64,000 nucleotides of DNA, from contig NZ_JAUSYK010000001.1 in the NCBI RefSeq assembly GCF_030816855.1, forward strand, positions 2,852,001 through 2,916,000, read 5' to 3'. The DNA is from Arthrobacter sp. B3I4. GTDB taxonomy: Bacteria; Actinomycetota; Actinomycetes; Actinomycetales; Micrococcaceae. The notes under the pieces are model-generated. The model had not been told where the DNA came from and ran no database searches. It worked only from the letters and a program-made list of their open reading frames with translations. How positions within the stretch are numbered: the stretch's first letter is position 1; the number at the start of each line of letters is the position of its first letter. The position numbers and the translations under genes are program-made. This document shows, in pieces, positions 40,848 through 64,000 of the stretch.

Positions 40848-43800
40848 CTACGCCCGCGCCAGCACCGGCGCCCGCCGGAAGGCGGCGGCGGCGTCGAGAT
40901 CCAGCCGCGCATCCTCCGGGGCGACGTCGTCCGGGTTGTGCGTCACCAGCACCACCGTGCGCCCGGACAAGCCGCGTCGCAGTTCGGCCAGCATGGTCCG
41001 GCCGGCTTCGGCGTCCAGGTGGGCGGTGGGTTCATCCAGCAGGATCACATCCGCGCCGGTCAGCAGCGTGCGCGCCACCGCCAGGCGCTGCCGCTCCCCG
41101 CCGCTGAGGAAGGCACCGCCCGGTCCGATAGGGGTGCCCAGGCCGCATTCCAGCCGCTCCAGCAGCGGGTCGAGTCCGACGGCGGCCAGCGCGGCTGCCA
41201 GCTCGCGGTCGCGTGCGGCCGCGCCGGCCGCGTCCGCCGGGGGCTTCCCTTCGGGCAGTCCGAGCAGAAGGTTTCCGCGGATGGTGGAGTCGAACAGGTG
41301 CGCTTCCTGGGGGCACCAGGCGGCGCGGCCGGTGAGGAAGAGCTGGCCGTCCGCCGGCGGCAGGAAGCCCAGCAGCACGGCCAGCAGCGTCGATTTGCCT
41401 GACCCGGAGGCGCCGGTCACGGCCAGCCAGCGGCCCGGTTCCGCACGGGCGGACAGTCCGGTGAAGACCGCTGGCCCGCCCGGCCACGCAGCGGCCAGCC
41501 CGCGGAGTTCGAGGCCGGGCAGTCCGCCCGGCCGCGCGGCCACCGGCGCCGGGCCGGCGGCGGCTTCCGGGGGTTCCTGCCCCGCGAGCACGCCCGAGGC
41601 GCCGATCCGGCGCAGTACCAAACGCAGCGCCGGGTACTGCCGGACCGCCGTCGTGATGGCCGCGTACGGTTCGACGAGGGCCAGTTGCAGCAGCACGACG
41701 ACGGCGACGGTCGCCGGTTCCGCCGCCCCGGTGAGGGCCAGTGGCCCGGCGAGGACGGCGCTGGCCAGGGCAGCGGTTCCGCAGGCCAGCACGGTGAGGC
41801 CCTGGCCGAGGCCCTCGGCCAGGGCCGAACGCTGTGATGCCGCCGTCGCGGCGCGGTCGGCGAGGCGGATGCCGGCCAGGACCGGCGAAGCGACGCCGTT
41901 GGCGTGCAGTTCGGCACGGGCGTCCAAGGCAGCCGCGACCCGGCGCAGCACGCCGGAGCGCAATTGCTGTTCGGCGCCGGCGGACATCCGGTCCGCGAAC
42001 AGCGCCAGCGCCGGCGCGACGGCGAGGCTGACGAGGGCGGCGGCGATGACGGCCGGCAGGGCCACCGGGAGCAACAGCCCGACCCCGGCGACGGCGGCAA
42101 CACCGACGGCAACGGCAGTCACCGGCGGCAGGACAACGCGCGGGAGCAGGTCGCGGACCGTGTCGACGTCGTCCACCACAGCACCGAGCACATTGCCGCC
42201 TTGCAGAAGCCGCCGCAGCGACAGTGCCCGCCGGCTCAGGGACTCCCACAGCCGGCCGCGGAGCCGGGTCAGGGCGGTGAAGACGGCGTCGTGCAGGAGC
42301 AGGCGTTCGGTGTAGCGCAGGGCGGCGCGGCCGACGCCGAAGAAGCGCACCCCCACGATCGCGGTGAGCAGGTACAGGATGGGCGGCTGCTCGCTGGCGC
42401 GGATGATGAGCCAGCCGGAGAGCCCGGACAGCGCGACGGCGAACAGCGCGGCCAGCACCCCGACCGCTCCGGCAGCGGCGAACTTGCCGGACACCGGGGC
42501 GAGCAGGCGGTACACGTGGGCCGCGGCGCTCCCGGCGGGGACGGCAGGGACGGCGGCGTGGTCCCCCGCGGCAGCGGCGTCCCCCGCAGCGGCGTGGTCC
42601 CCCCCGACAGGGGTCTCCGGCGGCTGGCCGTCGCCGGCTGCCTCAGCGGCTGCCTCAGTGGCAACGGTCCCGGCCGGAACGGCGGGCGCTGAGAGCTGCT
42701 GCTGCGGGACCGTTCCGCGGGCGGCGGCGGTGGAGCCGGATCGAACAGTGCCCGAGGGCTCGCCGACGCTCACCAGCTGGTCCGCAAGCTCGCGGGTTTG
42801 CCGGTCGTGCGCGACCAGCAGCACGGTGACCCTGCCGCGCAGGCCCACAATGGTGCGGCTGACCGCGTCGGCGGAGGCGCGGTCCAGGTGGGCGGTGGGC
42901 TCGTCGAGCAGCAGCACGGTGGCGCCGGCCGCGACCCGGGCCAGCCCGCGCGCTACCGCCACCCGGCGCAGCTCCCCCGGACTGAGCTCGGCGGGGTGCT
43001 TGGCGGCGAGGTGTTCGGCGGCGCAGGCAGCCAGGCAGCGCCGGGCCGTGGCAACGTCGTCGCGGGCAACGTCGTCGCGGGCAGCGGCGTCGCGGGCTGC
43101 GGCGTCCCCGGACCGGGCCGGGTTGGCGCCAAGGTACAGCAGGACTTCTGCCAGCACGGTGGGTTCGACCATCACCGGGTGTTGCGGCACCCAGGCCAGG
43201 TCCGCCGTCGTGAACCCTTCCAGCGTTCCGCTGATGTCGGTGCCGGCGCCGGCGCCGATAGTGCCGGCGAGCACGCCCAGCACAGTGCTCTTGCCGGCAC
43301 CACTGTGGCCGTCCAGCGCGGTGATGCTGCCGGGCGCGGCGGTGAAGCTCAGCGGCCCGACGGCGGCGTCCGCGCGTCCGGCATAGCGGACGGTGAGCCC
43401 GCGCACGGTCACTGCGGGCGGCCCGGCAGCAGGCCCGGAACCAGTCGAAGCGGAAGCAGCAGAAGCAGCCGGCCCGGAACCGGCCCGCCCGCCCGCGCGG
43501 ACGCCTGCCACCGGAACCAGCGGGACTGCCTGCTCGGCGTTGAGAACCTCGGTGCTGTCGGCGAGCGCGGCACGGCCTTCATCACTGGCGTGGTGCGCGG
43601 TCCCGAGCTCGCGCAGCGGCAGGTAGCAGTCCGGGGCAAGGATCAGCGCCAGCAGTCCCGCTTCCAGTGCCATGTCGCCGTTAACCAGCCGGACGCCAAT
43701 GAAGACGGCCACCACCGCCACCGAGATCGTGGCGATAAGTTCCAGCGCCAGGGCCGAGAGGAACGCGGTGCGCAGCGTTCCCATGGTCTTGGCCCGGTAC

Positions 43801-44477
43801 TCCTCGGAGATGTCTTCCAGGGCTTTGCGCTGGGCAGTGGCACGGCCCAACCCGACCAGCACGGGCAGGCCCTTGGCGAGCTCCAGCATGTGGCCGGAGA
43901 GCCGGGACAGCGCAGCCTGGGCGTCCCGGACCCGGTCCTCGGTGTAGCGGCCAATCAGGACCATGAAGACCGGCACGAGCGGGACGGTCAGGACGATCAC
44001 CACGGCGCTGATCCAGTCCGCGAACAGGATCCGCGCCCCGAGCAGCAGCGGAACGGCGGCGCAGTTCACCAGGGCCGGCAGGAACTGGGTGTAGTAGTTG
44101 TCCAGGGCGTCCAGACCGCGGGTAGCCAGCACGGCGAGTCCGCCGTCGGCCGGCCCTGCGGTGCGGTTGCCGGTGCGCAGGGCGGCGTCGAGCAGCTCCG
44201 AGCGCAGCTCTTCCTTCACGCCGAGCGCGGCGCGGCGGGAGGCCACCGCCTGCGCCCACACGGTGAGCGAGCGCAGCACCACCCCGGCCAGCCCCCAACC
44301 GAGCTGATCCGCCCAGGCCGGGTTGTGCGCCATCAGGCCGGCGAGCACGGCCGCGACCGCCTGCGCCATGAGGACCAGGGACAGCGCTTTCAGGGCGGCC
44401 AGCAGCCCCAGCAGGTAGAGCGCGGAGCGGGTCGCCGTACCGGTGGGGAATTGCCCGGCGGGGAACTGCGGTTTCAT
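40848..44477 (-). CDS. cydDC: CydDC fused thiol-reductant ABC exporter
   Basis: CydDC exports reduced thiols (or binds haem) to allow assembly of cytochrome bd. Here both half-transporters are one 1209-residue chain. The CydD half has its membrane domain at 15-290, Walker A GHSGAGKST at 390-398, signature LSPGE at 498-502 and Walker B VLLLDEP near 521-527. An Ala/Asp-rich insertion at about 457-477 is encoded by four 15-bp repeats. The CydC half has a second membrane domain, Walker A TGASGSGKST, signature LSGGERQR and Walker B VILLDEP. It starts 6 nt after the cydB stop, so the operon is cydA-cydB-cydDC. Confidence 0.94.
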   Translation of the reverse strand: MKPQFPAGQFPTGTATRSALYLLGLLAALKALSLVLMAQAVAAVLAGLMAHNPAWADQLGWGLAGVVLRSLTVWAQAVASRRAALGVKEELRSELLDAALRTGNRTAGPADGGLAVLATRGLDALDNYYTQFLPALVNCAAVPLLLGARILFADWISAVVIVLTVPLVPVFMVLIGRYTEDRVRDAQAALSRLSGHMLELAKGLPVLVGLGRATAQRKALEDISEEYRAKTMGTLRTAFLSALALELIATISVAVVAVFIGVRLVNGDMALEAGLLALILAPDCYLPLRELGTAHHASDEGRAALADSTEVLNAEQAVPLVPVAGVRAGGRAGSGPAASAASASTGSGPAAGPPAVTVRGLTVRYAGRADAAVGPLSFTAAPGSITALDGHSGAGKSTVLGVLAGTIGAGAGTDISGTLEGFTTADLAWVPQHPVMVEPTVLAEVLLYLGANPARSGDAAARDAAARDDVARDDVATARRCLAACAAEHLAAKHPAELSPGELRRVAVARGLARVAAGATVLLLDEPTAHLDRASADAVSRTIVGLRGRVTVLLVAHDRQTRELADQLVSVGEPSGTVRSGSTAAARGTVPQQQLSAPAVPAGTVATEAAAEAAGDGQPPETPVGGDHAAAGDAAAAGDHAAVPAVPAGSAAAHVYRLLAPVSGKFAAAGAVGVLAALFAVALSGLSGWLIIRASEQPPILYLLTAIVGVRFFGVGRAALRYTERLLLHDAVFTALTRLRGRLWESLSRRALSLRRLLQGGNVLGAVVDDVDTVRDLLPRVVLPPVTAVAVGVAAVAGVGLLLPVALPAVIAAALVSLAVAPALALFADRMSAGAEQQLRSGVLRRVAAALDARAELHANGVASPVLAGIRLADRAATAASQRSALAEGLGQGLTVLACGTAALASAVLAGPLALTGAAEPATVAVVVLLQLALVEPYAAITTAVRQYPALRLVLRRIGASGVLAGQEPPEAAAGPAPVAARPGGLPGLELRGLAAAWPGGPAVFTGLSARAEPGRWLAVTGASGSGKSTLLAVLLGFLPPADGQLFLTGRAAWCPQEAHLFDSTIRGNLLLGLPEGKPPADAAGAAARDRELAAALAAVGLDPLLERLECGLGTPIGPGGAFLSGGERQRLAVARTLLTGADVILLDEPTAHLDAEAGRTMLAELRRGLSGRTVVLVTHNPDDVAPEDARLDLDAAAAFRRAPVLARA
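43051..43110. repeat. 4 x 15-bp tandem repeat inside cydDC
   Basis: Two exact copies of GCAACGTCGTCGCGG are followed by GCAGCGGCGTCGCGG and GCTGCGGCGTCCCCG. The unit keeps the reading frame and encodes an Ala/Asp/Arg-rich insertion between Walker A and the signature motif of the CydD ATPase. Confidence 0.85.
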
Positions 44478-44483
44478 CAGGTC

Positions 44484-45533
44484 CTAGTCTTTCGGCGCCA
44501 GTGCCCTGGCAGCAATGGCGGGCAGGAAGCTGTGCGCTTCGGGAATGTGCGCGTCGCTCACCCGGCGCCGGAAGACCCAGTAGGTCCACGCCTGGTACGC
44601 CAGCACCAGCGGCAGTCCGATGCAAGCCACCACGGTCATCAGGCCCAGGGTGTAGTCCGAGGAGGAGGCGTTGGCGACCGTCAGGCTGAAGTCCGGGTTA
44701 AGGGTCGAGGGCAGGACCACCGGGAAGGCGGCACCGAAGATCGACGCGCTGCCCAGCAGCAGGAAGACACCCAGCGACAAAAACGCCCGTCCTTCCGCTC
44801 CGCCGCGGGCGAAGTTCCAGGCCAGGACGGCCGCCACGACGGCAGCGAGCACCGCCGCTATGGTCCAGGCCTTGCCGCTGTGCAGCTGCAGCACGACCGC
44901 CCAGCCGGCGATGGGCAGGAGCAGCACCGGCAGCAGGCGCACGAACCACTGCCGTGCCCGGTGCCGGACTTCGCCGTCGGTCTTCAACGCCAGGAACGCC
45001 AGCGCGTGCAGCAGGGAGAAGCCGACGACGGCGAGGCCGCCCAGCACGGCGTAGGCGCTGAACCAGGCGAAGGGGCCGCCCTCGCGGTCGCCGTTGGCGT
45101 TGAGCGGCAACCCGGTGGTGGTCAGCGCCAGGGCGGCGCCGACGCCGAACGCGGCCACCAGGGAGCCCAGCACGATGGCCCAGTCCCAGCGGGCGCGCCA
45201 CTGCGGGGTGTCGACCTTGCCGCGGTACTCGAACGCCACGGCCCGGAAGATCAAGGCCACCAGGACCAGCAGCAGCGGCAGGTAGAGCGCGGAGAACAGC
45301 GAGGCGTACCAGAGCGGGAAGGCAGCGAACGTGGCGCCGCCGGCGGTGAGCAGCCACACCTCGTTGCCGTCCCAGACTGGGCCGATCGTGTTCAGCAGCA
45401 CCCGGCGTTCGGTGTTGTTCCGGGCGAAGCCCTTCATGAGCATGCCGACGCCAAGGTCGAAGCCCTCGAGGAAGAGGTAGCCCGTCCAGAGCACGGCGAT
45501 GGCAATAAACCAGATAGTGGGAAGCAGTTCCAT
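44484..45533 (-). CDS. cydB: Cytochrome bd ubiquinol/menaquinol oxidase subunit II
   Basis: Membrane subunit of the bd-type terminal oxidase, 349 residues with eight or nine helices. The start MELLPTIWFIAIAVLWTGYLF, the FDLGVGML motif (about 26-33) and NTIGPVWDGNEVWL (about 49-62) are diagnostic. The C-terminus ends with a short basic tail. GAGGA lies about 9 nt before ATG 45533. It follows cydA by 33 nt. Confidence 0.95.
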   Translation of the reverse strand: MELLPTIWFIAIAVLWTGYLFLEGFDLGVGMLMKGFARNNTERRVLLNTIGPVWDGNEVWLLTAGGATFAAFPLWYASLFSALYLPLLLVLVALIFRAVAFEYRGKVDTPQWRARWDWAIVLGSLVAAFGVGAALALTTTGLPLNANGDREGGPFAWFSAYAVLGGLAVVGFSLLHALAFLALKTDGEVRHRARQWFVRLLPVLLLPIAGWAVVLQLHSGKAWTIAAVLAAVVAAVLAWNFARGGAEGRAFLSLGVFLLLGSASIFGAAFPVVLPSTLNPDFSLTVANASSSDYTLGLMTVVACIGLPLVLAYQAWTYWVFRRRVSDAHIPEAHSFLPAIAARALAPKD

Positions 45534-45566: not shown

Positions 45567-47165
45567 TTAGTAGGCGAAGGCCAGGACGTCGTCGGCTGCG
45601 GACTTGCCGGTGCTTCCGCCCGGCGGGGTCTGGTCCTCGTTCTCGTCCGCCGCGGCGTGCACGAGTTCGGGCATCGCAGAGACCACGCCGCCGCGGACGT
45701 ACTTCACCAGCAGCTTCACCTCCACTACCAGCAGCACGGCGTAGACGGCGGTGAGCACGACCAGGGAGGTCAGCAGTTCGCCGGCTGAGACGCCCGGGGA
45801 GACAGCCGCGGCGGTGAACATGAAGACCTGATCGATGCCGCTGGGGTCCGGGTTGGGGGCCACGACGAAGGGCTGCCGGCCCATTTCGGTGAAGATCCAG
45901 CCGGCGGCGTTGGCACCGAACGGTGCCAGGATGCCGACGACGGCGAGGCGCATCAGCCCGCGGGAGGCCGGGACGGTGCCCTTGCGGGTGAGCCAGAGGG
46001 CCACTGCGGCGGCCAGGGCCGCGACCCCGCCGAAGCCGATCATCATCCGGAAGCCCCAGTAGGTGACTTCCATGACCGGGACGTACTGGATTTCCTTGCC
46101 GGCGCGGTCGCCGTAGATGGGGTTGTCCGGCAGGTGTGTCCCGTAGTCGGCCTTGTACTGCTCCAGCAGGCTGTTGACGCCTTTCACTTCGGTCGTGAAG
46201 TCCCCCTTGGCCAGGAAGGAGAGGATACCGGGGACTTCGATGACGGCGACGACGTCGTCGCAGTTCTTGGAGCCGACGTTGCCGACACTGAGGATGGAGA
46301 AGCCGGTGCCGTCGTGGCAGGCGGCTTCGGCGGCGGCCATCTTCATCGGCTGCTGGACGAACATCAGCTTGCCCTGGAGGTCTCCGGTGACGGCGGTCCC
46401 GGCGAAGGAGATCATCGCGACGACGGCGCCGATCCGCAGCGAGCGGATCCAGACGCTGTGGTCCGCGCGGTCGCGGCCGGGGATGTCGGAGTCGCCGGGA
46501 ACCACCTTGCCGTCGGCGTCGATGGTGTCGATCCCGTCGTGGCGCCGGCGCCACAGGTGGTACCAGGCGATGCCGAGGAGGAAGGCACCGGCGACGGCGA
46601 GGGCGCCGAACAGGGTGTGCGGCACAGCGACGAGGGCGGTGTTGTTGGTAAAGACCGCCCAGGCGTCGGTCATCACCGGCCGTCCGTCGATCATCTCGAC
46701 GCCCACAGGGTGCTGCATCCAGCTGTTGGCCACAATGATGAAGTAGGCGGAGAAGACCGAACCGATTACCGCGATCCAGAGGCAGGCCAGGTGGATGCCG
46801 CGCTTGAGTTGTTTCCAGCCGAAGATCCACAGGCCCAGGAAGGTGGACTCCACGAAGAACGCCAGCAGCGCCTCCATGGCCAGCGGTGCGCCGAAGACAT
46901 CCCCGACGAAGCGGCTGTACTCGCTCCAGGCCATGCCGAACTGGAATTCCTGCACGATGCCGGTGGCCACGCCCATGATGAAGTTGATCAGGAAGAGCTT
47001 GCCCCAGAACTTCGTCATCCGGAGGTATTCAGGCCTGCCGGTGCGGTACCAGAGCGTCTGGATCACCGCGACCACCAGTCCAAGGCCGATTGTCAGCGGC
47101 ACCATCATGAAGTGGTAGACGGTGGTGATGCCGAATTGCCAGCGTGCAATTTCCAAGGCGTCCAA
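45567..47165 (-). CDS. cydA: Cytochrome bd oxidase subunit I
   Basis: Haem-bearing subunit of the high-affinity, non-proton-pumping bd oxidase, 532 residues. Haem ligands by comparison with E. coli are H18 (VYHF), H183 (PHTLFG) and M375 (FRMMIG); the acidic proton-channel residues E98 and E106 are present. The Q-loop after GDLQGK (261-266) is short and has Cys283 and Cys302, 19 apart, as in the disulfide described for the mycobacterial enzyme (spacing from memory). The start is an unusual TTG with AAGGGA upstream. Two BlaI-type dyads lie 32-72 nt before it. Confidence 0.95.
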   Translation of the reverse strand: MDALEIARWQFGITTVYHFMMVPLTIGLGLVVAVIQTLWYRTGRPEYLRMTKFWGKLFLINFIMGVATGIVQEFQFGMAWSEYSRFVGDVFGAPLAMEALLAFFVESTFLGLWIFGWKQLKRGIHLACLWIAVIGSVFSAYFIIVANSWMQHPVGVEMIDGRPVMTDAWAVFTNNTALVAVPHTLFGALAVAGAFLLGIAWYHLWRRRHDGIDTIDADGKVVPGDSDIPGRDRADHSVWIRSLRIGAVVAMISFAGTAVTGDLQGKLMFVQQPMKMAAAEAACHDGTGFSILSVGNVGSKNCDDVVAVIEVPGILSFLAKGDFTTEVKGVNSLLEQYKADYGTHLPDNPIYGDRAGKEIQYVPVMEVTYWGFRMMIGFGGVAALAAAVALWLTRKGTVPASRGLMRLAVVGILAPFGANAAGWIFTEMGRQPFVVAPNPDPSGIDQVFMFTAAAVSPGVSAGELLTSLVVLTAVYAVLLVVEVKLLVKYVRGGVVSAMPELVHAAADENEDQTPPGGSTGKSAADDVLAFAY

Positions 47166-47196
47166 GGCAGTCCCTTTGGCTAGGTTCCCAAGAGTT

Positions 47197-47213
47197 TTCT
47201 ACGTTGCGTAGAA
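47197..47213. promoter_or_regulatory. BlaI-type operator dyad 1 upstream of cydA
   Basis: TTCTAC-GTTGC-GTAGAA, a perfect 6-5-6 inverted repeat, 32 nt before the cydA start. Its centre is 24 bp from dyad 2, with an extra TTCTAC half-site between (47215-47220). Confidence 0.75.
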
Positions 47214-47220
47214 CTTCTAC

Positions 47221-47237
47221 TTCTACAGAGTGTAGAA
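47221..47237. promoter_or_regulatory. BlaI-type operator dyad 2 upstream of cydA
   Basis: TTCTACA-GAG-TGTAGAA, a perfect 7-3-7 inverted repeat close to the TACTACA/TGTAGTA half-sites of staphylococcal BlaI/MecI operators. Confidence 0.78.
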
Positions 47238-47341
47238 CATTGGCTTGGCCTGGCGCACCTCCGCAGCCCCGTCGTGCCCGCCGCTGCGCCGGCCATTACG
47301 ACGGCGCGCGCCGGCCCAGGCGACACGCCGCGGGCGGCCCG

Positions 47342-47358
47342 TTCTACCGCATGTAGAA
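47342..47358. promoter_or_regulatory. BlaI-type operator dyad 3 upstream of the blaI-like gene
   Basis: TTCTAC-CGCAT-GTAGAA, 94 nt before the repressor start. Same half-sites and spacing as the two cydA-side dyads, suggesting autoregulation. Confidence 0.75.
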
Positions 47359-47452
47359 AGTAGCCGCAAAACGCGGTAAATTTAGAGCTGAAGTATCCAC
47401 CTCTCCCGGGGGCACACGCAATGCCCGGGGGTTCTCAAGAAGGACGTACGGA

Positions 47453-47839
47453 ATGGCGAGTCTCGGCGAACTGGAACGGGCAGTGATGGACCTGCTCTGG
47501 GCAGGCCAGGAGGCCGCCACGGCCAACACGCTGCGGGACCTGCTGGCGCAGAGCACGCGGGTACCCGGCGGCACGGAGGGCCACGACGGCAAGGACCTTG
47601 CGGTCACCACCGTGCTGACAGTGCTTTCCCGGCTCGAACGCAAGGGCCTCGTGGAGCGCGAACGCGGCACCCGACCGCACCGCTACCAGGCCGTCTCCAG
47701 CCGCGCCGACCACACCGCCGAACTGATGCACGAAGTGCTGGGCTCCGCCCCAGACCGCGAGGCCGTCCTAGCGAGGTTCATCGGATCGGTCTCCGCCACC
47801 GAAGCGGAAACGCTGCGCAAGCTGCTGGAGCACAGCTAA
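47453..47839 (+). CDS. BlaI/MecI/CopY family transcriptional repressor
   Basis: A 128-residue winged-helix repressor. The DNA-binding domain (about 1-75: LGELERAVMDLLWAG, then LAVTTVLTVLSRLERKGLVERE) and the C-terminal dimerisation helices (about 80-126) follow the family pattern. An insertion of about 12 residues (TRVPGGTEGHDG) lies between helices 2 and 3, where related proteins are shorter. AAGGACG precedes the ATG. An M56 protease gene follows 6 nt after the stop, the classical repressor-antirepressor pair. Because of the dyads it probably controls itself and the divergent cytochrome bd operon. Confidence 0.92.
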   Translation: MASLGELERAVMDLLWAGQEAATANTLRDLLAQSTRVPGGTEGHDGKDLAVTTVLTVLSRLERKGLVERERGTRPHRYQAVSSRADHTAELMHEVLGSAPDREAVLARFIGSVSATEAETLRKLLEHS

Positions 47840-47845
47840 CACCGG

Positions 47846-48835
47846 ATGTTCTGGACCTCATATCTTCTGGCGGTCCTGGCGATCGTACTGGCCTGGCCGG
47901 TGCCTATCCTGCTTTCCCGCGCCCAGTGGCCGGCCCGCTCCCCGTCCACCGCGATGCTGCTCTGGCAGGCGATCGCCCTCGCCGGCGGGCTGTCGATGAT
48001 CGGCGCCATGCTGGTCTACGGCCTCGAGCCGATCGGCGACAACCTGCTGGCCGGCCTCCGGTCGCTGGCCGGCATGGTGTTGCGGAACGAACCCACCACG
48101 GCGCTGGGCTTCTGGCACATCTTCGCGCTCTCGGCGGCGGCACTGCTGAGTGCCCACCTGGTCTTTACCCTGCTGCTCACGTACTACCGGATCCAGCGCC
48201 AGCGCCGGCGGCACCGGGAGTTGCTGGCCCTGCTTGCCTCCCCCTCGCCCGACGGCCCCAGGACCATGGTGATCAGCCATGACTCCCCGGTGGCCTACTG
48301 CCTGCCCGGCGGCGCCCGGTCGGTGACGGTCCTTTCGGACGGGCTGATGGCGGCCCTGGAGCCGGACGAACTGCGGGCGGTGCTCAGTCACGAGAACGCA
48401 CACCTGAGCCAGCGCCACCACCTGCTGCTCTGGGCGTTCGCAGCGTGGCGGCAGGCCCTGCCGTGGCTGCCGACCACCCGCCTGGCGCAGGAAGCAGTCA
48501 ACTCGCTGATCGAGATGCTGGCCGACGACGTGGCGCTCAAGACCGAAAGCAAGGCCACGCTGATCAAGGCGATCGCGATTGTGGCCAACGGCTCCCCAGG
48601 TGCCCCCGGCGCACCGGCGGCCCGGATGGCTTTCGGCACCGCGGAGCCGGACGCCAACCAGCCCGGAGCCACCGGCGGTGCCGGAGCGCTGGTGACGACG
48701 GCCTCGCGGGTCAGCCGTCTGCTGTCCCCGCGACCGCCGCTGCCGGAGGCGTTGCGCTACGCCGTGCTGGCTGCTTGCCTGCTGCTGCTGGCAGTGCCGA
48801 CGGCACTCTTGATCGTCCCCGGCCTGCTCGGCTGA
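47846..48835 (+). CDS. M56 family membrane metallopeptidase (BlaR1-type, no sensor domain)
   Basis: A 329-residue integral membrane zinc protease: three helices in the first 115 residues, a cytoplasmic catalytic domain with HENAH at 182-186 and the third-ligand region EMLAD at 223-227, and a final helix at about 310-328. BlaR1/MecR1 carry an extra extracellular penicillin-binding sensor after that helix; it is missing here, so the trigger is not a beta-lactam bound to that domain. The likely role is to cleave or release the BlaI-type repressor encoded just before it. Its substrate is inferred from the operon. Confidence 0.9.
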   Translation: MFWTSYLLAVLAIVLAWPVPILLSRAQWPARSPSTAMLLWQAIALAGGLSMIGAMLVYGLEPIGDNLLAGLRSLAGMVLRNEPTTALGFWHIFALSAAALLSAHLVFTLLLTYYRIQRQRRRHRELLALLASPSPDGPRTMVISHDSPVAYCLPGGARSVTVLSDGLMAALEPDELRAVLSHENAHLSQRHHLLLWAFAAWRQALPWLPTTRLAQEAVNSLIEMLADDVALKTESKATLIKAIAIVANGSPGAPGAPAARMAFGTAEPDANQPGATGGAGALVTTASRVSRLLSPRPPLPEALRYAVLAACLLLLAVPTALLIVPGLLG

Positions 48836-52088: not shown

Positions 52089-52465
52089 TTACGCCGCAAG
52101 CATTCGCACGCGGTACTCTACGGGGCTCAATCCCTTGAGTCTGGTGGAAATTCTTCGGTGTTGTACCAGCGCATGTACTCGCGCAGCGCAGTTTCAAGCG
52201 CTTCGATGCTGAGGAACCGGACACGGTGGAAGAGCTCTTCCTTCAGGTGTCCAAAGAAGCTCTCCATGACCGCGTTGTCGTAGCAGTTGGCTTTGCGGGA
52301 CATAGATTGGACCGCGCCGGCGTCTGCCAAGAGTGTGCGCCAAGAATTGTGCTGATACTGGAACCCTTGGTCGGAATGCACGAGGGGTGTCTGCCCGTTC
52401 TCCAGCGTGGCCAAGGCACCGCGCAGCGAGGCATTGGCCAGCTCCAGGTTCGGCGACGTATGCAT
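52089..52465 (-). pseudogene. IS3-family transposase (integrase-core) remnant, truncated and frameshifted
   Basis: Only the C-terminal part of an OrfB-type DDE transposase remains: HSDQGFQYQ, SMSRKANCYDNAVMESFFG with the catalytic Glu, and REYMRWYNTE. It is broken twice. The 5' end stops abruptly at an inverted-repeat structure near 52466. The 3' end shifts frame after NTE: GAAGAATTTCC appears to have lost one base from GAA-CGA-ATT-TCC, after which the next frame reads RISTRLKGLSPVEYR and ends at TAA 52089. The element cannot make an active transposase. Confidence 0.88.
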
Positions 52466-63706: not shown

Positions 63707-64000
63707 ATGACTATTCTCTTCAACATCCTGGTCTTCCTGCACGTGGTGGGAGCCGCCATGATCGTGGGCTACTGGATCGCCACCATGCGGACCCCTACCG
63801 TGCACCCGCGCCAGCGCGACGGCGCCTTCCTGCAGCTCCTCACCGGCATTGCCATGATGGGCGTCCTTCCCTTCCTGCCTGACTCGGATCCCAACTACGC
63901 CAAGCTGGGAATCAAGCTTGTCGTGGCCGTCGTGGTCGCAGTCCTGGCCGTCATCGGAGCCCGCCGCGTCAAGCAGGGCCAGCCGGTAAGCACGGGCCTC
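63707..64000 (+). CDS. Hypothetical integral membrane protein, 5' part
   Basis: The frame is open from ATG 63707 to the window end, giving 98 N-terminal residues. It starts MTILFNILVFLHVVGAAMIVGYW and has three hydrophobic segments (about 3-23, 44-60 and 71-89) separated by short polar loops with TMRTPTVHPRQRDGAFL in the first. It looks like a small multi-helix membrane protein; I do not recognise the family. The 3' end lies outside. Confidence 0.7.
   Translation, partial: MTILFNILVFLHVVGAAMIVGYWIATMRTPTVHPRQRDGAFLQLLTGIAMMGVLPFLPDSDPNYAKLGIKLVVAVVVAVLAVIGARRVKQGQPVSTGL

Follow-up and report, generated by a model that had tools for sequence, protein, structure and literature searches.

Predicted operators of a BlaI/M56 repressor-protease pair at cytochrome bd and other respiratory genes in Arthrobacter and its relatives

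In Arthrobacter sp. B3I4, genes for a BlaI-family repressor and a membrane protease lie divergent from the cytochrome bd genes, and the inverted repeat TTCTAC-N5-GTAGAA between them is, judging from its sequence and conservation, very likely the operator of this pair, with cyd as a target. Further copies of the dyad point to a respiratory regulon that would take in both oxidase branches, ATP synthase, haem synthesis and cytochrome c assembly, and in some genomes sdh and copper genes as well. A first-pass annotation had proposed that the pair controls cytochrome bd; cyd is strongly supported as a target, but the proposal is too narrow, since the predicted sites span a respiratory regulon.

The cyd/blaI locus and its protein products

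The window, the whole stretch of 64,000 nucleotides that was analysed, contains a fused cydDC gene, cydB and cydA on the minus strand, an intergenic region with three exact dyads, and divergent blaI and protease genes, in that order (Table 1). All dyad and gene coordinates of the first-pass annotation hold on direct reading, and its three dyads are real, exact and far above chance: at up to two mismatches the window has four matches against 0.27 expected, a count reached in 0 of 100 shuffles. The additional half-site TTCTAC that it placed between dyads 1 and 2 exists (47215-47220), but is found in only 1 of 44 tandem-dyad loci and is rejected as a functional element. At 52127-52465 (minus strand) there is a short ORF that by eye resembles the C-terminal part of an IS3-type transposase.

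Table 1. Features of the window
Feature	Coordinates	Strand	Basis or remark
Fused cydD-cydC exporter gene	40848..44477	-	TIGR02857 and TIGR02868, both over cut-off
cydB	44484..45533	-	PF02322, 341.2 bits; TIGR00203
cydA, cytochrome bd subunit I, TTG start	45567..47165	-	PF01654, 502.6 bits
Operator dyad 1 (predicted), cydA-proximal, TTCTACGTTGCGTAGAA	47197..47213	.	Exact TTCTAC-N5-GTAGAA
Operator dyad 2 (predicted), TTCTACAGAGTGTAGAA	47221..47237	.	Exact; spacer with -10-like TACACT (47229-47234), cydA strand
Operator dyad 3 (predicted), blaI-proximal, TTCTACCGCATGTAGAA	47342..47358	.	Exact; 18 bp before -10-like TAAATT (47377-47382)
blaI, BlaI-family repressor, 128 aa	47453..47839	+	PF03965 (Penicillinase_R), 74.4 bits; PDB 2g9w, 61.3 bits
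M56-type membrane metalloprotease, BlaR1-like protease part, 329 aa	47846..48835	+	HENAH residues 182-186, E223
Further predicted operator, TGCTACGGGCTGTAGAA	63669..63685	.	1 mismatch; before small membrane protein gene
Small membrane protein gene, 117 aa, runs off the window	63707..64000	+	No Pfam family; candidate regulon member

The repressor belongs to the BlaI/MecI family, its Penicillinase_R score standing far over the curated cut-off of 22.6 bits, and it matches PDB 2g9w, which we take to be BlaI of Mycobacterium tuberculosis. It is the only full-length BlaI-family protein of the B3I4 genome, which has one weak partial match besides. Dyad 3, with its conservation, would supply the palindromic operator that BlaI/MecI-type repressors have in their own promoter.

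The protease has the features of the BlaR1/MecR1 (M56) group, namely an HExxH motif with a downstream Glu in a membrane protein encoded beside blaI, and its active-site residues H182, E183, H186 and E223 are invariant in 51 of 51 sequences. Its Pfam matches are to M48 (44 bits, cut-off 20.3) and M56 (22.7 bits, below the cut-off of 31). The fold match to BlaR1 is weak: the three best matches of the model (pLDDT 87) are the BlaR1 structures 8exq, 8exs and 8exp at E-values of 0.005-0.014, none below 0.001, followed by human ZMPSTE24 at 0.016. The first-pass annotation was right that the sensor domain is missing. No penicillin-binding domain occurs in the 329 residues, Pfam matches are confined to M48 and M56, and where BlaR1 and MecR1 have their C-terminal beta-lactam sensor the model ends in one helix. 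Residues His104 and Met55 of the membrane part were considered as a conserved copper or haem site and rejected; they are invariant in 46 proteins of the family, but their conservation is 0.65 and 0.39 in a wider alignment of 31 sequences that used 30 of the 80 loci described below. Because conservation of this transmembrane His/Met pair does not extend beyond the family, the protease itself gives no hint of copper. Residue C152 (48299-48301), which lies next to the catalytic motif in an AYCLPG strand, is conserved in 97% of the 31 sequences and is a possible redox handle.

Distribution of the dyad and of BlaI

Exact dyads number seven in the 3.61-Mb B3I4 genome, against about 0.02 predicted from the base composition of the window and two exact matches to a control pattern read backward. 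The 19 genomes of the genus (B3I4 included) have 6-9 each, with 0-3 for the backward control, and all 10 genomes of other families in the same survey, three of them with weaker BlaI homologues, have none. With one mismatch allowed, the B3I4 genome gives 16 sites versus 10 for the control; single one-mismatch sites, such as those at sucCD and a DUF1775 operon, are therefore unproven without support from relatives, and these two and the one at locus L022 were left out of the target count.

Presence of the dyad tracks BlaI. A survey of 197 genomes of the family, calling BlaI homologues at E-values up to 1e-3, found an exact dyad in 168 of 169 genomes with BlaI (seven of the 169 matches being distant, E 1e-8 to 1e-23), and the sole exception, G114, has a distant BlaI match. 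Among the 28 genomes without BlaI, eight of them inferred as such by subtraction, three have an exact dyad and 25 do not (Fisher test 2.8e-27, kinship ignored). Within one genus (g16) the dyad occurs once in each of the four genomes with BlaI and in none of the eight without it (p 0.002, kinship again ignored). A class-wide draw of 246 genomes had 37 with an exact dyad, which by our count comprise 23 of 23 from family f26, 8 of 12 from family f13, three from Arthrobacter's own family and three others. One genome (G188) has a BlaI homologue with a single internal stop (G188:C1:1061205-1061543) and still has 12 exact dyads.

The arrangement of the locus is likewise conserved. Genome surveys gave 54 BlaI loci, of which tblastn confirmed 52 (L066 and L067 were dropped, having no BlaI by tblastn). 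In these the protease gene lies downstream in 51, and a divergent cydA is present in 47 (986 bp away in L042). Tandem dyads 6-9 bp apart precede cydA in 44 of 46 family loci, two further loci of the 48 examined (L060 and L061) being excluded as lying outside the family. A second set took the best 80 loci by BlaI alignment in named genomes; chosen by BlaI similarity, it includes many closely related loci and shares some species with the first. It spans Arthrobacter, Pseudarthrobacter, Sinomonas, Nesterenkonia, Brevibacterium, Microbacterium, Labedella and others, and also Geodermatophilus, Blastococcus, Nakamurella and Frankia. All 80 loci have the protease, 68 have a divergent cydA in the fetched flank, and 78 have a dyad with at most one mismatch within 700 bp of blaI, the exceptions being Brevibacterium gallinarum and Frankia. 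The scan of relatives for the dyad near cydA and blaI, which the first-pass annotation had put forward as a check, thus finds it conserved.

Of the 12 loci whose fetched flank holds no cydA, 11 still have the dyad before blaI (one of these loci, L296, lies at a contig end), and a blaI-proximal dyad is also present at loci where cydA is not adjacent (L042, L043, L241 and L278-L280). Microbacteriaceae, Brevibacterium and Geodermatophilaceae share the blaI-M56/cydA arrangement, dyads included. We read the dyad as the operator of the pair because it tracks BlaI, persists at blaI without cydA, and recurs in this arrangement in other families.

Variants were seen at a few loci. Outside the family, the stretch that separates blaI from a cydA-like gene in L061 (genome G024) has TACTAC-N5-GTAGTA, which suggests drift of the outer letters of the operator from clade to clade. 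Upstream of blaI in L304 (B. gallinarum) and in L060, from a like genome, a CTAC-N6-GTAG variant replaces the N5 dyad.

Genes adjoining the dyads

The seven exact dyads of the B3I4 genome lie at cyd/blaI (three), hmp, a locus of two small membrane proteins, a His-phosphatase/resA/ccdA/resB operon and hemQ-hemH; Pfam matches among the neighbours include globin, ResB and ferrochelatase, as well as PF06778, presumably HemQ. Three other genomes of the genus (G001, G011 and G002) have all their exact dyads at these same loci and at a pyridoxamine-oxidase-like gene. One-mismatch sites ahead of ATP synthase, qcrC/ctaE and the small membrane protein gene that ends the window have counterparts in other genera.

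Three genes were scanned for a dyad (at most one mismatch, within 1.5 kb upstream) in 30 genomes of 26 genera, 26 of the genomes having BlaI. A site was found at hemQ in 19 of the 26 (15 of them exact), at atpB in 20 and at qcrC in 14, and in none of the genomes without BlaI (0/4, 0/4 and 0/3). About 0.0004 matches are expected per region by chance, and nine scrambled dyads gave no match in the same scan. Eighteen of the atpB sites fall at about -900 to -1110, ahead of the operon's first gene, and two elsewhere (-233 and -365); those of qcrC lie just before the gene or roughly 900 bp upstream of it, at the expected start of ctaE. The predicted set shifts between genomes, with no site at hemQ in 7, at atpB in 6 and at qcrC in 12 of the 26.

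From three other genera (genomes G036, G039 and G034) we read 20 of the 40 listed exact dyads, naming neighbours with Pfam and in some cases by eye (ctaB is a UbiA match). Thirteen lie at hemA/hemE, ABC genes (which precede ctaA in the B3I4 genome), ctaC (2), atp, resA (2), copC, copD/ctaG, SURF1, sdhC and ctaB. The ctaC, ctaB, SURF1, sdhC, hemA/hemE, copC and copD/ctaG sites are additions from two other genera, and dyads at copC and copD/ctaG occur in two families. Of the rest, three are at small membrane proteins and one is at a pyridoxamine-oxidase-like gene; three have no clear respiratory neighbour (L223, L233 and L225, the last flanked by isocitrate lyase and a small protein).

Eight loci were fetched from family f13, which we take to be Microbacteriaceae. 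Six of them are at cyd/blaI, one of these with an additional dyad ahead of a CydD-like gene, and the others are at hmp or at a small membrane protein. Of 12 dyads fetched from family f26, five adjoin blaI/cydA, hemE or copC and one adjoins an Rrf2 gene; the remaining six have unrelated neighbours. Exact dyads of f26 at L322-L324 and L329-L331 adjoin loci that by eye are monooxygenase-like, TetR-like or dehydrogenase/phosphatase-like and not respiratory, and these recur between two genomes.

Before homologues of the 117-aa protein at the end of the window, a dyad with at most one mismatch is present at 8 of 22 loci from genomes with BlaI and at 0 of 3 from genomes without. At L338, from another family, an exact dyad precedes a homologue of 34% identity. 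Small membrane proteins of 95, 195 and 117 aa that match no Pfam family adjoin dyads in several genera (for example at L012 around 3959, B3I4 genome position 806958, and at L021:3108-3461) and are candidate new respiratory proteins.

Proposed mechanism, alternatives and known systems

The dyads are placed as for a repressor at cyd, atp and blaI, with promoter roles that we infer from -10-like motifs. In 15 of 16 sequences the dyad at atp extends into a -10-like TAGAAT, and the blaI dyad stands at -35 distance from its TAAATT. In dyad 2 the spacer letters ACT are conserved at 75% in 48 sequences of the genus and less strictly in 40 others.

The best explanation, which we consider probable, is that BlaI is a respiratory repressor acting at the dyads and is relieved by the sensor-less protease when the respiratory chain is insufficient. 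BlaI would bind the dyads overlapping or next to the promoters of cydABDC, of blaI itself and of the genes for ATP synthase, haem synthesis, cytochrome c maturation and cytochrome c oxidase/bc1, and keep these genes repressed. The membrane-spanning M56-type protease would be activated by an insufficient chain, most likely by a lack of copper or haem in the haem-copper oxidase or by a block of electron flow. It would then cut BlaI, so that all respiratory branches rise together, and the pair would reset itself through its own promoter. For the signal, our leading guess is that the oxidase falls short, perhaps in copper. Copper is the preferred candidate because PetP of cyanobacteria reads copper, because of the copC and copD/ctaG dyads in two families, and because YcnI/YcnJ (CopC-CopD) proteins serve the copper supply of oxidases in Bacillus, according to the accessible part of PMC13344008.

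The cyanobacterial precedent, PetR/PetP (PMC7896320 and PMC12292863, in their accessible parts), also suggests a switch in which the protease reads copper itself and BlaI replaces the copper oxidase by copper-free cytochrome bd. The dyads at copper genes would suit it, as would a one-mismatch site two genes before the DUF1775 (YcnI-type) gene of the B3I4 genome. But both oxidase branches have dyads, as do ATP synthase and haem genes, and the placing at cyd and atp is repressor-like, which suggests a joint rise rather than an exchange; a simple exchange of oxidases is disfavoured by the sites at both branches. No conserved metal ligands were found in the membrane part of the protease among the 31 sequences, and we regard this switch as rather unlikely. 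Most targets being respiratory, the dyads might instead serve another conserved respiratory regulator, with blaI-M56 as merely one target: Rex and HrrSA regulate such genes in actinobacteria, according to titles and abstracts, and an Rrf2 gene precedes hmp and its dyad. This we hold improbable, for the dyads vanish without BlaI even within one genus, the four BlaI-less genomes of the upstream scan keep hemQ and atpB in all four and qcrC in three and yet have no dyads there, and blaI keeps its dyad at loci without a nearby cydA. Very improbable, finally, is a switch of the staphylococcal kind that answers to beta-lactams or envelope stress and acts on cyd only secondarily, in spite of the family membership of the pair and a report that amoxicillin/clavulanate induces blaI-blaR and cydAB of M. 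tuberculosis (PMC5473688, accessible part), since the protease has no penicillin-binding domain and no beta-lactamase or cell-wall gene was recognised beside the 16 B3I4 sites (by eye, with 28 proteins Pfam-scanned). The first-pass annotation had left the choice between a respiratory and an envelope-stress switch; the dyad neighbours favour the former, and envelope stress gained no support in this analysis.

With the respiratory repressor as the preferred reading, a wider idea can be offered, although we lean slightly against it: control of the respiratory chain may be the ancestral core function of BlaI/M56 pairs in Actinomycetes, with regulation of beta-lactamase acquired later as a secondary role. 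On this view the protease gauges, from the membrane, whether oxidase or copper/haem is sufficient and adjusts the output of the entire chain in one step.

Among known systems, staphylococcal BlaI/BlaR1 and MecI/MecR1 share the repressor and zinc protease, BlaR1 structures being the best (weak) fold matches, but the Arthrobacter protease lacks their penicillin-binding sensor domain and the targets are other ones. The copper repressors CopY/TcrY give a weak TIGR02698 match of 26.3 bits, far below the equivalog cut-off of 121.95. PetR/PetP, as described in the parts of PMC7896320 and PMC12292863 available, likewise combines a BlaI-type regulator and a BlaR1-type protease, with no beta-lactam role and with electron-transfer targets; it differs in having two named targets (petE and petJ) and a copper signal, against a broad predicted respiratory set in Arthrobacter. 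No such regulon in Arthrobacter relatives appeared among the matches listed in the open-licence literature, which is no proof of absence, and no mention of the BlaI/M56 pair was found in the accessible part of PMC12140626.

Closest is the pair BlaI (Rv1846c)/BlaR (Rv1845c) of M. tuberculosis, with a related repressor (the 2g9w match), a protease lacking the sensor domain, and reported binding to cytochrome bd and ATP synthase promoters (PMC5473688, accessible part, citing Sala 2009, also for a mycobacterial BlaR without sensor; the ATP synthase link is mentioned in passages of PMC7924339 and PMC5874750 too). It differs in being named for blaC control. Predicted operators at both ATP synthase and cytochrome bd promoters are likewise present in Arthrobacter relatives, and with BlaI reported at those two promoters in M. 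tuberculosis this kind of system is already known and less new than the first-pass annotation implied. What look new, on sequence evidence, are the breadth of the set, the shared operator code and the depth of conservation of the cyd linkage; unlike the reported M. tuberculosis sites, that regulon being known to us second-hand, those of Arthrobacter reach haem, cytochrome c maturation, bc1-aa3 and hmp. If this is true, a family known from antibiotic resistance becomes a candidate for the master regulator of oxidative phosphorylation in a large group of soil bacteria, in which one signal could adjust cytochrome bd along with the main oxidase, ATP synthase, and haem and cytochrome c assembly. 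An exact operator code is now available to test, and Arthrobacter relatives offer harmless hosts for finding what the sensor-less protease reads, the same question that the mycobacterial pair poses.
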